Under the pieces are notes generated by a model, which saw only the letters and a list, made by a program, of their open reading frames with translations, was not told the DNA's origin and made no database searches. The position numbers were made by a program, and so were the translations under genes. This document shows, piece by piece, positions 5,549 to 15,916 of a DNA stretch of 28,531 bases; positions within the stretch are counted from its first letter, which is position 1, and each line of letters starts with the position of its first letter. The DNA lies in the IMG/VR virus record IMGVR_UViG_3300030101_000155, positions 1-28,531 of that record. One strand, written 5' to 3'. Origin of the DNA: a virus.

Positions 5549-5970
5549 ATAGACAACAAATAAAACTTTTTTCTAGTAAAAAGACGGATAACTGGTCAAC
5601 TCCAAAAAAACTATATGATGATCTGAATAAGGAATTTAATTTTGATTTTGACCCCTGTCCTTTAAATTCCTCTTTTAATGGTTTAGATATTAAATGGGGA
5701 AAAAGAAATTTTATAAACCCCCCCTATAGTAATGTGATAGGATTTTTGCAAAAAGCCCATGAAGAGTTAGAGAATGGTAATGCGGATTTATGTGTGTTTT
5801 TGACTTTTGCAAATACAGATACGAAATGGTTTCATAATTATTGCTATGGAAAAGGAGAATTAAGGTTTATAAAAGGGAGATTAAAATTTGTAGATGAAAA
5901 TGGTAATACTAAAAATAGTGCTATGCGACCAAGTATGTTGGTAATTTTAAAAAGAAAGCATGAAAAATAA
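5545..5970 (+). CDS. dam: Phage N6-adenine DNA methyltransferase (Dam family)
   Basis: This enzyme should transfer a methyl group to adenine in DNA, probably to protect phage DNA from restriction. Residues 17-38 show the phage-Dam N-terminal pattern 'WSTPKKLYDDLNKEF-FDFDPCP', and the catalytic motif IV NPPY is at 58-61 (FINPPYSNV). RFIKGRLKF and RPSMLVIL near the C-terminus also fit the family. I chose ATG 5545 (MNRQQIKLFSSKKTDNWSTP, 141 residues). ATG 5494 would add 17 residues. No restriction enzyme is nearby. A run of seven C encodes the Pro-Pro of the catalytic motif. Confidence 0.88.
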   Translation: MNRQQIKLFSSKKTDNWSTPKKLYDDLNKEFNFDFDPCPLNSSFNGLDIKWGKRNFINPPYSNVIGFLQKAHEELENGNADLCVFLTFANTDTKWFHNYCYGKGELRFIKGRLKFVDENGNTKNSAMRPSMLVILKRKHEK

Positions 5971-5992
5971 TATTAATTTAAAAACAAATAAA

Positions 5993-6211
5993 ATGAAAAA
6001 AATGACACAAAAAGAAAGAGTAGTAAGACACTTAAATGACAAAGGTTCTATTACATCATTAGAAGCCATGAAAGAATATGGCATCATGAGGCTAACATCA
6101 AGAATTTGCGAATTAAAAGATGAGGGATATAAAATAAGGAGTGAATTTGTAAGTAGTAAAAACAGATACAACGAGCCTGTATCTTTTAGTAAATATTCAC
6201 TAATGAATTAA
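5993..6211 (+). CDS. Small helix-turn-helix protein (HTH_39-like)
   Basis: ATG 5993 follows AAAAACAAATAAA, the usual A-rich leader; the frame is also open from 5960, inside the dam end. The 72-residue protein contains 'MTQKERVVRHLNDKGSITSL' and 'EAMKEYGIMRLTSRICELKDEGY', matching the small helix-turn-helix domain often found in phages ('GSITSLEAxxxxGIxRLxxRIxxLxxxGY'). It is probably a DNA-binding regulator or recombination accessory. Its stop TAA overlaps the next ATG (TAATG). Confidence 0.8.
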   Translation: MKKMTQKERVVRHLNDKGSITSLEAMKEYGIMRLTSRICELKDEGYKIRSEFVSSKNRYNEPVSFSKYSLMN

Positions 6212-6615
6212 TGAAGTCAATAAGTAAATTAAAAAAAGAATTAGATAAATGGTTTAGTCTTTTTATAAGGCTTAGAGATGCTGATGATTTGGGTTTTGTA
6301 AAGTGTTACACATCAGGGCGTTACTATCACTATAAGAGTATTCATGCAGGACACTTTATGTCAAGAAAATGCTTATCAACTAGGTGGGATGAAATTAACG
6401 TACAACCACAATCAATAGCGGACAATCTTTATGGGCAGGGCAGACAATATCAGTTTGGTATAAATTTAGATGCTGAATATGGAGAGGGAACTGCTGAAAG
6501 ATTACAGATCATATCTAGGCAAATACAGAAGTTTTCTAGGGCAGATTATGAAGAAAAGATAAGTTATTACAAAGAGGCTGTTAAAAACTTAAAAAAAGAA
6601 AAGGGAATTGAGTAA
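6211..6615 (+). CDS. NinG-like recombination protein with degenerate zinc knuckles
   Basis: The 134-residue protein has the NinG/Rap signature: FIRLRDADDLGFVKCYTSG (residues 18-36), HAGHFMSR (45-52), TRWDEINVQPQS (57-68) and YGEGTAERL (about 90-98). NinG proteins (lambda Rap) are recombination nucleases acting on branched DNA such as Holliday junctions. Usual family members carry CxxC-type pairs; here the first has only Cys32 and the second reads QSIADN. The core histidines of HAGHF remain. It could be active with fewer metal ligands, or be an altered version. Confidence 0.8.
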   Translation: MKSISKLKKELDKWFSLFIRLRDADDLGFVKCYTSGRYYHYKSIHAGHFMSRKCLSTRWDEINVQPQSIADNLYGQGRQYQFGINLDAEYGEGTAERLQIISRQIQKFSRADYEEKISYYKEAVKNLKKEKGIE

Positions 6616-6637
6616 ACATTTATTATAAATTTGGCGT

Positions 6638-6994
6638 ATGCACAAACCAATATACGCAAGTGAACAACATAAATCTATTATAGATGTTTATATTACTATG
6701 TGCAAACAATTTGTTGAAGATGTCACAACCAAGACAAGATACAACAATTATTTGGAAGTTGTTGATGTAATTATGGAGTATTCTAATAATTATGGGAAAG
6801 GAACACATGAAAACAACTTTTACGATTGGATCATGATTATTCCAATAAACTTATCAGTAGCAACAAATGGTTTTTTTGCAGGAATAGAAACTAAGACAAA
6901 TGCAGCAGTAGTCAGAGCATATAAAGTTGTGTTAGAAGAAATGCTATATGAGGTTGTAGAAAAGCTAGACAAACTAGAGCCAAAACATGACTGA
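6638..6994 (+). CDS. Hypothetical protein (118 residues)
   Basis: It starts MHKPIYASEQHKSIIDVYIT and appears largely helical, with a mildly hydrophobic middle (DWIMIIPINLSVATNGFFAG) that is too polar for a clear membrane helix. It begins 22 bp after the ninG-like stop and overlaps the sigma-like gene by 8 bp, suggesting coupled expression with that gene. No family is recognised. A sigma-factor partner or antagonist is conceivable from the overlap alone. Confidence 0.7.
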   Translation: MHKPIYASEQHKSIIDVYITMCKQFVEDVTTKTRYNNYLEVVDVIMEYSNNYGKGTHENNFYDWIMIIPINLSVATNGFFAGIETKTNAAVVRAYKVVLEEMLYEVVEKLDKLEPKHD

Positions 6995-7580
6995 GATATA
7001 TTTAGAAATAGCTAAATTGACAGATAAGTTTAGAACAATGGCTTACGGATTAACAACAGATGAAAACAAAATAAATGATGCGGTGCAGGAATTAATGCTT
7101 TATTTTTTACAAATGAATCCTGATATTTTAAAGGGCATATATAAAAAGGATGGTGTTGATGGCTTAACAAGGTATGGGGCGGTTGCTCTAAGAAGAGCAT
7201 TAACAAGCAAAAGGAGTAATTTTTATTATAAGTATGAGAAGTATTACACACATATTGATTGCAATTCTTATAATGTGCATTTTACTTGTAGCGGTGATAC
7301 TATGGCATATCATTTTGACAATAATAAACATATATATAATTTGCCGAATGAAGAAGTAGATAACACACAATTAGAAAAATTGGAATTGATTGACCAAGAG
7401 CTTGACAAATTAGACTATTGGTACGACAGGGAATTATTTAAGCTTTATTATTATGAAGCAGGTAGCACACTAGATAAAATACATAAAAAAACAAAAATAA
7501 GCAGAAACAGCATATTTACAACAATAGACAAAGTAAGAAACATTTTAAAAAATAATTTAACTGATAAAAAAAATAAATGA
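6987..7580 (+). CDS. Phage sigma-70-like RNA polymerase sigma factor
   Basis: The 197-residue protein has a sigma region-2-like part at about residues 28-85 (INDAVQELMLYFLQMNPDI, then YGAVALRRALTSKRSNFYYK) and a region-4-like helix-turn-helix at about 145-190 (LFKLYYYEAGSTLDKI and KTKISRNSIFTTIDKVRNIL). This fits the small sigma-like proteins of Bacteroidetes phages. It probably redirects host RNA polymerase to phage promoters. The only repeated promoter-like motif in the genome, CTATTATATAATAG, lies in the late module, so that is its likely target. It overlaps both neighbours, and the next gene begins inside its stop (ATGA). Confidence 0.7.
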   Translation: MTEIYLEIAKLTDKFRTMAYGLTTDENKINDAVQELMLYFLQMNPDILKGIYKKDGVDGLTRYGAVALRRALTSKRSNFYYKYEKYYTHIDCNSYNVHFTCSGDTMAYHFDNNKHIYNLPNEEVDNTQLEKLELIDQELDKLDYWYDRELFKLYYYEAGSTLDKIHKKTKISRNSIFTTIDKVRNILKNNLTDKKNK

Positions 7581-8050
7581 AAAAAATAATTTTATTTTTA
7601 TTTGTAGTATATGGATTAAAAACATCCGCACAATTATGTGATTCAATAACATATTGGGCAGATCAAAGCCAAGGATTTAATGTAGGTCTTGATACATCAA
7701 ACATAGCTAATAGCCCTGATTCTATGGAAGTATGGTGGGGGGCTTGTGCTAATGGTGTATGTTATGCAGGGCAAGGTATGAGTTATTATTTTTCACAAAT
7801 TACACCAACCGATACAGTAAAATTAAATTATGATGTGTATATATATATAAATGGTTTAGTAGAGGTATGTAGTATAGAAGATTGGTTAATATTTGATGGT
7901 AATAATTGGGTAATATACAATATGAATACTGTTGGAATAAAAGAACACAAAGATAAAATAGGAATCAATAAAATGTATGATTTATATGGCAGGGAGATAT
8001 TAAGGCCTAATGGTTTTTATATAAGAAACAATAAATTATTTTATGAATAA
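7577..8050 (+). CDS. Secreted protein with signal peptide and type IX secretion-like C-terminal tail
   Basis: Residues 1-18 form a signal peptide (MKKIILFLFVVYGLKTSA) with probable cleavage before Gln19. The mature domain has paired cysteines and a beta-rich pattern ('DSMEVWWGACANGVCYAGQG', 'PTDTVKLNYDVYIYINGLVE'). The C-terminus holds YDLYGRE (134-140) and GFYIRNNKLFYE (146-157), which resembles the end of the type A sorting domain of Bacteroidetes type IX secretion substrates ('YDLLGRE ... KGLYIxNGKK'). It overlaps the sigma gene by 4 bp. Phage structural genes would not need export, so it probably acts in the periplasm or on the infected cell surface. Similar proteins seem to occur in marine flavobacteria and their phages, from memory. 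Acquisition from a host is likely. Confidence 0.7.
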   Translation: MKKIILFLFVVYGLKTSAQLCDSITYWADQSQGFNVGLDTSNIANSPDSMEVWWGACANGVCYAGQGMSYYFSQITPTDTVKLNYDVYIYINGLVEVCSIEDWLIFDGNNWVIYNMNTVGIKEHKDKIGINKMYDLYGREILRPNGFYIRNNKLFYE

Positions 8051-8444
8051 GTTTTTTGTGCCAAACAATGTGTATGAGGACAGGCTAGAAATATGTAAGT
8101 CATGTGTTTACTATTTTAAACCTACTGGAACCTGCAAGCGGTGTTTGTGTTTTATGAAACTGAAATGCAGGTTAGCACCTATGGAGTGTCCGCAGGGTTT
8201 TTGGCAAAAAACAACAGATATAGAAACCCCTGATGATTTGCCACAGGAAATAATAGATGAAATATTAGATATGTGGAAAGATTTAAAAACAGGTAGGGCA
8301 AAAGACGTACAAGCAAAAAAAAGAATGATAGAAACATACAACGTAATACACATGACTAATTACAGTCCTACTACAAATTGTGGTAGTTGTATATCTACAT
8401 GCTATGATGCAATTAAAAAACTATATAATAAATATTCGGAATGA
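8043..8444 (+). CDS. Cys-rich zinc-binding protein
   Basis: The first 60 residues have ICKSCVYYFKPTGTCKRCLC followed by CRLAPMECPQGFW, a 'CxxC ... CxxCxC ... C ... C' array typical of small phage zinc-ribbon proteins ('ERLxICxxC...CxxCGCFM...CPxGKW'). The C-terminal half is helical and ends with CGSCISTC, a second CxxC group. Metal binding is likely, but the role is unknown. It overlaps the secreted-protein gene by 8 bp and the next gene by ATGA. Confidence 0.75.
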   Translation: MNKFFVPNNVYEDRLEICKSCVYYFKPTGTCKRCLCFMKLKCRLAPMECPQGFWQKTTDIETPDDLPQEIIDEILDMWKDLKTGRAKDVQAKKRMIETYNVIHMTNYSPTTNCGSCISTCYDAIKKLYNKYSE

Positions 8445-8656: not shown

Positions 8657-8885
8657 ACCACACTATTATATAGGTTCTATGTATGGCTATTCAGCTAGGC
8701 GTATAGTTGAAGATTTTGAATTAAATGCGTGGACTGCTCAGGCTGTTCAGTATATATTAAGATCAGGGAAAAAAGCAGGTAGCCCACCAGAACAAGATAT
8801 AAGAAAAGCTATTAATGTTTTACACTTTGAATTAGATAGACTACATAACGAAAGTAAAACAAGAACAGGGGGATTAGCAAAATGA
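8622..8885 (+). CDS. DUF3310-like small phage protein
   Basis: The 87-residue product has HYYIGSMYGYSARRIVEDFE and AVQYILRSGKKAGSPPEQDI followed by RKAINVLHFELDRL. This matches the DUF3310 layout 'HY ... GNxxKYxxRAGKK ... EDLxKAxWYLxxxI', found in many phages, sometimes labelled a nucleotide-kinase-like protein without proof. ATG 8622 is preceded by AAAAATGAC-type A-rich sequence. It overlaps the cytosine methyltransferase start by 4 bp (ATGA). Confidence 0.75.
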   Translation: MTKKEDYKLQTEPHYYIGSMYGYSARRIVEDFELNAWTAQAVQYILRSGKKAGSPPEQDIRKAINVLHFELDRLHNESKTRTGGLAK

Positions 8886-9487
8886 AAATATTAAATTTAT
8901 ATGCAGGAATTGGGGGAAATAGAACCCTTTGGGGAGATGAACACGAAATAACAGCAGTAGAAATAAATGCTGAAATTGCAGGAATTTATAAGAGTAAATT
9001 CCCAGATGATAATGTAATAGTTACAGATGCTCATTACTATTTACTAAATAATTATAAAGAATTTGATTTTATTTGGAGTAGCCCACCATGTCCTAGTCAT
9101 AGCAAATTATGTTATAGTCAAAACACAAAACAATATATAGATGTAACTTTATACCAACAGATAATATTACTAAAGTCATGGTTTAAAGGTAAATGGGTTA
9201 TAGAGAATGTTATTCCTTACTATGAGTATTTAGTTAAACCATCATTTATAATAGGCAGACACCCGTTTTGGAGTAATTTTAATGTTACATTATTAGAAGT
9301 GAAAAATATAGATGTTTCAAGAAGCACTAATGAACAGCTTTCAGATTATTTAGGAGTGCCTATACCAAGATATAAAGCAGGTAAAACATTAAGAAATTGT
9401 GTAGAACCAAAAACAGGGCTACATATTTTAAATTGTGCTAAAGGTATAATAGAAGAAAATAAAGTTGAACAAAACAAACTATTTTAA
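8882..9487 (+). CDS. dcm: C5-cytosine DNA methyltransferase
   Basis: Motif I (SAM binding) is LNLYAGIGGN at residues 4-13, followed by the acidic AVEIN (25-29) that binds the cofactor ribose. Motif IV is SSPPC with catalytic Cys70 at 66-70, and motif VI is WVIENV with ENV at 108-110. At 201 residues it is shorter than typical enzymes (about 300 or more), so the target-recognition domain must be small. With the Dam-type enzyme at 5545-5970 it gives the phage two kinds of DNA methylation and no visible restriction partner, which fits protection from host restriction. Its stop lies one base before the next ATG. Confidence 0.85.
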   Translation: MKILNLYAGIGGNRTLWGDEHEITAVEINAEIAGIYKSKFPDDNVIVTDAHYYLLNNYKEFDFIWSSPPCPSHSKLCYSQNTKQYIDVTLYQQIILLKSWFKGKWVIENVIPYYEYLVKPSFIIGRHPFWSNFNVTLLEVKNIDVSRSTNEQLSDYLGVPIPRYKAGKTLRNCVEPKTGLHILNCAKGIIEENKVEQNKLF

Positions 9488-13919: not shown

Positions 13920-14458
13920 TGGACTTTAAAAATCTTGAAAGGTATTTAGAAAGCTTTGGTAAGCAGGTTATAAACAGGGCAAAGCGAAATCTTGCGAGAG
14001 CAAAAGGAGGTGGTAGTGCGTTAGAAAAATCAATACGTTTTGAGGTTAAAAAAAGCAAAGATAGTTTTGAGGTTCAATTCTGGATGGCTCCATACGGAAC
14101 CTATGTTGATAAAGGAGTTTCAGGAACTAAACAAATTAGGAAATTTAAAAACTATGAAAATCAAACTAAAACAAGTCCTTATAAATACAAATCAAAACAA
14201 CCACCATCAGGAATTTTAGATAAGTGGGTAGTAAAAAAACGTATAGCCCCTAGAGATGAACAGGGCAGGTTTATAAAAAGAAAGAGTTTGGTTTTTTTAA
14301 TTGCAAGAAGTATTAAGTTTAATGGAATACAAGGTATAAGTTTCTTTCAAAAACCGCTAGGATTAGGGATGAAACAATTTGGTGATAAAATGTTGGGAGC
14401 TTTAGGCGAGGATGTTTTAAGTTCAATTAAAAAAGAAACTTTAACAACAGTAAAATAA
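13919..14458 (+). CDS. HK97 gp10-like head-tail/tail completion protein
   Basis: The 179-residue protein begins MDFKNLERYLESFGKQVINR and contains 'ALEKSIRFEVKKSKDSFEVQ', 'MAPYGTYVDKGVSGTKQIRK' and 'LIARSIKFNGIQGISFFQKP'. This is the HK97 gp10 layout ('GxLxxSIxxxV...YAxxVExGT...'), with the typical aromatic-Gly patch. Such proteins close or join the tail to the head. It is very basic. Spacing to the next gene is 6 bp. Confidence 0.75.
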   Translation: MDFKNLERYLESFGKQVINRAKRNLARAKGGGSALEKSIRFEVKKSKDSFEVQFWMAPYGTYVDKGVSGTKQIRKFKNYENQTKTSPYKYKSKQPPSGILDKWVVKKRIAPRDEQGRFIKRKSLVFLIARSIKFNGIQGISFFQKPLGLGMKQFGDKMLGALGEDVLSSIKKETLTTVK

Positions 14459-14464
14459 AAAAAT

Positions 14465-15916
14465 ATGTCAGTAACAAATTCAGTAATAGAGCAACAACCA
14501 TTATATACTACAATGCCTGTTGGGCAGGATGTTATTTTTGTAATATCAAATGATGATGCAGTAGCAAATTATGAAAAGGTAAAATTTATAGTAGATATAC
14601 ATATAAGCAGCACAACACCGCCTGATACTACTACAACAAATGATTTAGTAGGTAGTTATAAAACAACGCCTAACAATGCAGGTGTAGGAATGTTTGATTT
14701 ACGTAATGTTTTAGAAAATTATGTAGAAGCAGATAATATGGCTGCTAATGGCAGTAGTTATAAATCAACAGTTACAAGTCCTGAAGAAAGACATCCTATA
14801 CATTTAATAGATAAGTATTCTGTAAACAATAATACTACTAGATATATGGCATTAGTATTTGCAGTAGAATTTTTGGGGGCAACAGATGCAGCAGGCAATC
14901 AGGATGCAAACACAGTTCGCAGGCAGGTAGGAACAGAAGTAAATTCAGATTTATTTGTTTTATTTAATGGCTATTTAAAATATACTGATAAATTGATGAT
15001 GGGAACCCCTGTAAACAATAATTTTGGATTTACAATGGTTGATTTCTTTCCTGCTGCTGTTGGGCTTCCTTTTGTAACTGATAAAAAGTTTTTAACAAAT
15101 GCTCCATTAATACAATATGCTAATTTAGAAGATTACGGAACACTTGCTTTTTTAGCACCAACAGATTTAATAGGCAATAATGTAACATCAATAAAAATAT
15201 CATATTTTGATTCAGCAGGGGCGGCAGTAGGAACGCCTGATACAGTAACTAAAAGCATAGGCACAGGGGCTTATACTATTTGGGATGCTGAAATAAACAA
15301 ACAAATTGTATTTTTTGGTTGCTATCCTGGTAATTTACAAAATTGGAGTGCAACCTTTCAGGCTAATTCATCTACAATAAGCTATTATACCATTAAGGCT
15401 TTAGATGCAAGCGGTGATGATTCTACAAAAACTTATACAATCAACATTAATTGTCCTGATGGTTTTGGCTATGAATCTATTAGGCTTTGTTGGCTTAATC
15501 AATGGGGTGCTTGGGATTACTATACATTCACAAAAAAATCAACTAGAACTATATCTACAAGCGGGACCACTTATACGCAATTACCAGGAACTTGGAACTC
15601 ATCTTTATATAGGCTAGATACTTACAAAGGCGGTAAAAAAGCATTAAGAAGAAATGCAACTGAAAGAATTAGTATGAACACAGACTTTGTAAAAGAAGAT
15701 GATAATGTAATGTTTCAAGAACTAACAAACAGCCCAGAAGTTTATTTGTTAGAGGGCTACCAAACTGATGGAAATTTTGCGGCATTAAATCAATATGTAA
15801 CACCTGTAACATTAAGCAGTTCATCATTTACTAAAAAAACAATAGCTAATGATAAATTGATACAATACTCTTTTGATGTAGAAAAAACTAAAATGTTAAG
15901 AACACAATCTGTATAA
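14465..15916 (+). CDS. Large tail structural protein (483 residues)
   Basis: It starts MSVTNSVIEQQPLYTTMPVG, followed by a beta-rich domain ('QDVIFVISNDDAVANYEKVK', 'GVGMFDLRNVLENYV'). A later part has 'YESIRLCWLNQWGAWDYYTF' and the C-terminus carries 'EVYLLEGYQTDGNFAALNQY'. This arrangement is familiar from flavobacterial siphophage tail genes that lie before a very large baseplate-like protein, as here. It is probably a distal-tail or baseplate component. The stop overlaps the next start (TAATG). Confidence 0.65.
   Translation: MSVTNSVIEQQPLYTTMPVGQDVIFVISNDDAVANYEKVKFIVDIHISSTTPPDTTTTNDLVGSYKTTPNNAGVGMFDLRNVLENYVEADNMAANGSSYKSTVTSPEERHPIHLIDKYSVNNNTTRYMALVFAVEFLGATDAAGNQDANTVRRQVGTEVNSDLFVLFNGYLKYTDKLMMGTPVNNNFGFTMVDFFPAAVGLPFVTDKKFLTNAPLIQYANLEDYGTLAFLAPTDLIGNNVTSIKISYFDSAGAAVGTPDTVTKSIGTGAYTIWDAEINKQIVFFGCYPGNLQNWSATFQANSSTISYYTIKALDASGDDSTKTYTININCPDGFGYESIRLCWLNQWGAWDYYTFTKKSTRTISTSGTTYTQLPGTWNSSLYRLDTYKGGKKALRRNATERISMNTDFVKEDDNVMFQELTNSPEVYLLEGYQTDGNFAALNQYVTPVTLSSSSFTKKTIANDKLIQYSFDVEKTKMLRTQSV

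Follow-up and report, generated by a model that had tools for sequence, protein, structure and literature searches.

The open reading frame at positions 7577-8050 of the window (the whole 28,531-nucleotide stretch of viral DNA analysed here, IMG/VR record IMGVR_UViG_3300030101_000155) is best explained, with a confidence somewhat above even, as an accessory phage gene that probably came from flavobacteria and codes for a small cargo protein of the host type IX secretion system (T9SS). Judging from sequence comparisons, we consider it likely that the C-terminal tail of the protein is a T9SS signal and the protein itself a T9SS cargo. Our data bear directly on the gene, its architecture, the homology of the tail, its co-occurrence with T9SS genes and its mobility as a cassette; export, cleavage and anchoring are what we infer beyond them.

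The gene and its product

The reading frame starts with ATG and comprises 157 codons, in agreement with its earlier description. Comparison with close relatives (91-97% identical) gave dN/dS values of 0.10-0.27, and we therefore take it to be a genuine coding sequence on which purifying selection acts. Its start overlaps the stop of the upstream gene by 4 nt (ATGA, 7577-7580), and its 3ʹ end overlaps the start of the next gene by 8 nt (ATGAATAA, 8043-8050). The sequence-only reading had reported an overlap with a sigma-factor gene; the overlap was found, but the sigma-factor label is weak (Table 1). Further downstream in the window, a 201-aa reading frame at 8882-9487 matched PF00145 (C5 cytosine methylase) in its first third only (E 2.4e-8) and is perhaps a reduced methyltransferase.

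Table 1. Positions of the gene, its neighbours and the parts of its product in the window.
Feature	Position	Strand	Basis
Complete gene, 157 aa; putative secreted protein ending in a short signal of T9SS type	7577..8050	+	ORF, dN/dS, relatives
Upstream overlapping gene, weakly sigma-factor-like	6987..7580	+	PHROG sigma factor, E=0.0027
Downstream overlapping gene, DUF6171-like	8043..8444	+	HMM search
Extra segment missing from sister phages	7568..8042	+	Empty site in L164, L167, L168, L170
Signal peptide, residues 1-19, TSA/Q	7577..7633	+	Sequence; conserved in close relatives; AlphaFold2 helix, low confidence
Body, residues 20-114, Ig/FnIII-like beta-sandwich (predicted)	7634..7918	+	Alignment; AlphaFold2 blocks at pLDDT 84-96
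Linker, residues 115-131, candidate cleavage site TV/GI (Gly120-Ile121)	7919..7969	+	Lowest model confidence; family conservation
Short T9SS-like signal, residues 132-157	7970..8047	+	Motifs, profile comparison, C-terminal position, strands at pLDDT 84-90
Motif B YDLYGR 134-139; motif D GFYI 146-149; motif E Lys153	within residues 132-157		

The N-terminus of the protein (MKKIILFLFVVYGLKTSAQ) is a typical Bacteroidota Sec signal, which bears out the signal peptide claimed earlier. In the family alignment Cys21 and Cys62 of the body are conserved, and so is a TxI/GI motif in the linker across the family; the tail, NTVGIKEHKDKIGINKMYDLYGREILRPNGFYIRNNKLFYE, is the best-conserved part. Export as a lipoprotein was ruled out, as there is no lipobox and the distance from the signal peptide to the first cysteine varies.

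The AlphaFold2 model (30-row alignment) had a mean pLDDT of 81, with a high-confidence beta-sandwich at residues 25-114 and a low-confidence linker. In the tail it contained strands at 147-150 and 153-156 as well as two-residue bridges at 133-134 and 140-141. A Foldseek search of the PDB with this model returned weak matches, mostly to FnIII/Ig-like folds and with no CTD among them, and the matches of a sequence search of the PDB were at chance level only. In the BFVD, Foldseek found A0A218ML00 of an uncultured virus (E 7.3e-13, 34% identity, 166 aa), which likely belongs to the same family and is unannotated, with no function proposed for it.

Relation of the tail to type A sorting domains

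The sequence-only reading had noticed a resemblance of the tail to T9SS sorting domains and proposed an HMM search against TIGR04183-type domains as a check. This check was negative: TIGR04183 and PF18962 matched neither the protein nor the tail, and scans with NCBIfam, Pfam and PHROGs likewise gave no meaningful match for either. The resemblance was recovered by profile-profile comparison, with short tails of bacterial proteins as a bridge and with classical type A C-terminal domains (CTDs) collected from two of the tail-bearing bacterial genomes. In hhalign, the phage tails matched the bacterial short tails with 99.5% probability, and the bacterial short tails matched the classical CTDs with 92.8% (P 3.9e-7); the direct comparison of phage tails and classical CTDs reached 55% (P 1.2e-4) over 15 columns only. 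Column-shuffle controls (150 each) never came near the real scores, with maxima of 16.8 against 23.8 and 13.7 against 34.2. A motif expression was devised as well, but only after inspection of the family, and it is not independent evidence.

In the profile alignments the tail was the counterpart of the C-terminal half of the classical type A domain. The full domain (TIGR04183 / PF18962) has at least 70 residues; the window tail is about half of it and has no YPNP strand. The profile comparisons support a relationship of the tail to type A T9SS sorting domains.

Comparison with short CTDs of Prevotella intermedia

In P. intermedia, a class of short CTDs was described that are 40-55 aa long and are predicted to form a three-stranded sheet; they contain motifs B, D and E and the cleavage consensus PT/GI, and both cleavage and glycosylation were demonstrated for them (Ye et al. 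2025, PMC11969387). For the CTD of P. gingivalis HBP35, the last 22 residues (motifs D and E) were the smallest part that brought GFP to the cell surface in a PorT-dependent manner (PMC3120885). By its sequence, the window tail fits the short-CTD class, so far reported only from P. intermedia. Both are about 40 residues long, with an Ile at the cleavage site (a candidate site in the window protein) and a predicted few-stranded fold, and both stand at the C-terminus of proteins with a signal peptide at the opposite end. They also share motif B (Y..G and a basic residue; Y134, G138 and R139 in the window), motif D (GxY and Ile; G146-F-Y148-I149) and a basic motif E (K153).

The agreement is not complete. 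Counted from the candidate site (Gly120), the window tail has 38 aa, slightly below the published 40-55, whereas its relatives have longer ones. Between Ile121 and Tyr134 there are 12 residues, as against the published 6-11 from the cleavage motif to motif B, counted with approximate motif borders. The gap between motifs B and D lies within the 1-6 residues given for P. intermedia; many relatives, however, carry GxxYI (GKMYI) instead of the GxY motif D, and in some of these the gap is 7. Unlike the P. intermedia domains, the window tail is phage-encoded, belongs to a marine flavobacterial setting and is known here from its sequence.

The tail as a module in viral proteins

Successive scans of viral contigs yielded 11, then 21 and then 49 loci, and with further relatives spanning the region about 70 viral contigs were found to encode proteins ending in the tail. 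Cultured phage records searched for relatives gave nothing beyond one chance match. Almost all extracted viral proteins consisted of a signal peptide, body, linker and tail, and a few were cut by contig ends. Every strong match of the tail profile in the viral loci lay 0-4 residues from the C-terminal end. The tail was also present on an unrelated body (TNCELCVEQNGFYCGDDESNWTQ...; loci L040-L043, L045, L046, L069, L071 and L074), so that at least two unrelated bodies carry it among the viral contigs. This position and its presence on the unrelated body indicate that the tail is a module. AlphaFold2 gave no usable model of the alternative body (pLDDT 36).

Bacterial homologues and co-occurrence with the T9SS

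Genome contigs contributed three loci. The first, L037 (PBGL02000003.1, from a MAG titled Euryarchaeota archaeon SP3063), is a 29-kb phage contig collinear with the relatives of the window, and hence apparently mis-binned in an archaeal MAG. The second, L038, comes from a bacterial chromosome and encodes a homologue of both body and tail; inspection by eye showed OmpA-like, asparaginase-like, TatD-like and glycosyltransferase-like genes beside it. Its source (CAMBDW010000009.1) is a MAG titled Chryseobacterium gleum, a title that may be wrong, given that a genome of about 1.5 Mb seems small for Chryseobacterium. In the third, L039, a Paraprevotella protein shares the tail but not the body.

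In the order to which the L038 genome belongs, 39 of 296 genomes had the phage-type tail, on many unrelated secreted proteins as well as on homologues of the window protein. One of these homologues has 170 aa and lies on a 354-kb contig (L139:8431-8943), and another is in the same genome (L138:8152-8724), with neighbours of the same kind as those in L038. Like the window protein, both of them and the L038 homologue (5605-6447), which has an extra N-terminal domain, comprise a signal peptide, body and short tail; unlike the window gene, all three are on chromosomes among genes for secreted proteins. In the tree, phage and bacterial rows were intermixed, with no clear direction of transfer, and the window protein grouped with rows from phages in whose contigs no further gene in common with the window was detected.

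We then looked at the T9SS genes of the tail-bearing bacteria. Of 20 genomes with the tail, of which 19 belong to the L038 order and one is the Paraprevotella genome G002, 18 encode SprA and all encode PorV; this sample has no T9SS-lacking contrast. The presence of these components in bacteria with the same tail agrees with the earlier proposal that the protein is built for export by a T9SS-type tail. In a Bacteroidales-wide sample, SprA was found in 277 of 295 genomes and in 32 of 32 tail-positive ones, a result that chance gives in about 13% of cases. As this test was uninformative, we repeated it within the family of G002, which offers a real contrast. Among its 201 genomes, 144 had both the tail and SprA, 44 had neither, 11 had SprA only and two the tail only (Fisher P 2e-31; as the genomes are related, this overstates the significance and is not to be taken literally). 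The two tail-only exceptions may be incomplete genomes. The tails inspected in the Bacteroidales search were C-terminal and resembled short CTDs. At the sequence level, these observations speak for a distribution of short CTDs much wider than P. intermedia.

A second class of short C-terminal tails (LVKIxDILGRETK..NQPLFYIYDDGTVEKKIVIE) was observed at the ends of several secreted proteins and one phage ORF. It was found at L139:1062-2546, 6310-6999, 7095-8327 and 14083-15546 (-), at L038:4478-5419 and 6690-7289 (+), and in a 920-aa ORF from position 6215 of L011; its bearers include an agmatine-deiminase-like protein and a choice-of-anchor V protein (NF041895). This class had no NCBIfam match, and its profile matched the first tail class weakly (62%) and the classical CTDs with 3%.

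Accessory status of the gene

The sister phages L164, L167, L168 and L170 lack the gene; in them, the sigma-like and the DUF6171-like genes overlap each other by the same ATGAATAA, and BLAST found no counterpart of window positions 7568-8042 in L164, L167 and L168. A short-tail gene was present in 17 of 49 related loci spanning the region, usually elsewhere in the genome, between homologues of w9465 and w9749. The gene is absent from these sisters and has homologues in bacteria and near kin in unrelated phages, as is the case for morons. The most likely reading is that the phage carries, as a moron, a T9SS cargo gene of flavobacteria. The terminase (63%) and portal (31%) of the window phage are nearest to those of the Nonlabens phages P12024S/L, and these similarities are consistent with a marine flavobacterium as the host.

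Proposed function and alternative explanations

Since the last 40 residues of the protein resemble a minimal T9SS address tag, the phage probably displays its own protein through the machinery of the host. The Sec signal would bring the protein into the periplasm, where its Ig/FnIII-like body would fold. The tail would then serve as a minimal ('short') T9SS signal, to be bound by host PorV and passed by the SprA translocon, and a PorU-type sortase would probably cut the linker near TV/GI, after which the body could be linked to surface polysaccharide or released. The infected cell would in this way display or shed a phage-made beta-sandwich. We hold surface anchoring to be evenly balanced. The purpose would most plausibly be a change of the surface directed against competing phages, which is speculative; superinfection exclusion or receptor masking is our leading guess, and a tentative one. 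Several observations count against the T9SS-cargo reading: the curated HMMs are silent, the direct match of phage tails and classical CTDs is short, the tail is shorter than the published short CTDs, and CTDs may be incompatible from one species to another (PMC11285876).

The protein could instead act at the surface or outside the cell as a host fitness factor (in adhesion, particle attachment or nutrient capture), helping the infected population and unrelated to other phages. The full homologues on flavobacterial chromosomes, among other genes for secreted proteins, favour this explanation, but the body has no known function and there is no sign of long-lived lysogeny, and we consider it unlikely. 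Still less probable is a T9SS decoy, a periplasmic protein whose tail would occupy PorV or the translocon and throttle the T9SS traffic of the host during infection, including gliding adhesins, hydrolases and phage receptors. The evidence on the tail applies equally to such a decoy, and conservation is highest in the tail, with bodies that vary; however, a pure decoy would need no conserved body, and that of the window protein is conserved, under purifying selection and common to host proteins.

We give a similarly low probability to a phage protein confined to the periplasm, with a degenerate and non-functional tail. The tail escapes the curated HMMs for sorting domains and is half as long as the classical domains, and the sequence-only reading had itself suggested a possible remnant. 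However, the tail has a low dN, as expected under purifying selection, it is the best-conserved part of the protein, strictly C-terminal and common to unrelated bodies, and in P. intermedia such short domains do function (PMC11969387); the idea of a remnant is not supported. A part in lysis or in the virion, as a spanin-like or decoration protein, is hardly credible, and a lysis or spanin role was rejected: phages do have exported lysis proteins, but here there is neither a lipobox nor a transmembrane anchor, the gene does not adjoin the peptidase-like ORF at 534-980, most sister phages lack it, and it has bacterial homologues.

Relation to known phage T9SS cargo

T9SS cargo encoded by a phage was reported for Cryophage, where superinfection exclusion was proposed as well (PMC7468147), and ORFs with T9SS domains were found near crAss-BACON genes in cluster 2 phages (PMC6949934). 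As in the window phage, the genes with T9SS signals are variable or accessory in these phages. Their signals, however, had been assigned to the ordinary T9SS sorting domains and are carried by enzymes, PA14 or BACON proteins, whereas in the window family the phages have 28 kb and the signal is a minimal one, attached to a domain of 95 aa. Within the open-licence literature, a family of short-signal T9SS cargo in small marine flavophages appears to be new, together with its bacterial homologues, its cassette behaviour and the occurrence of short CTDs outside P. intermedia.

As a wider, and only possible, picture, phages of marine flavobacteria would have a dedicated, exchangeable family of minimal T9SS cargo, whose phage-made domains the host sortase attaches to the surface during infection for superinfection exclusion or remodelling, and short T9SS signals missed by HMMs would form a general class that spans gut bacteria of the Prevotella type and marine flavobacteria. 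If this is true, small marine phages exploit a secretion system specific to their hosts for a protein of one domain and offer a compact system for testing how phages remodel marine flavobacterial surfaces. Our results indicate that short T9SS signals are far commoner than P. intermedia alone would suggest; as TIGR04183 and PF18962 do not see them, T9SS secretomes are probably undercounted. In the BFVD, we also noticed A0A6J5L8Z9, a protein of an uncultured Caudovirales phage annotated as 'Gliding motility-associated, C-terminal domain', which possibly carries a type B T9SS signal.
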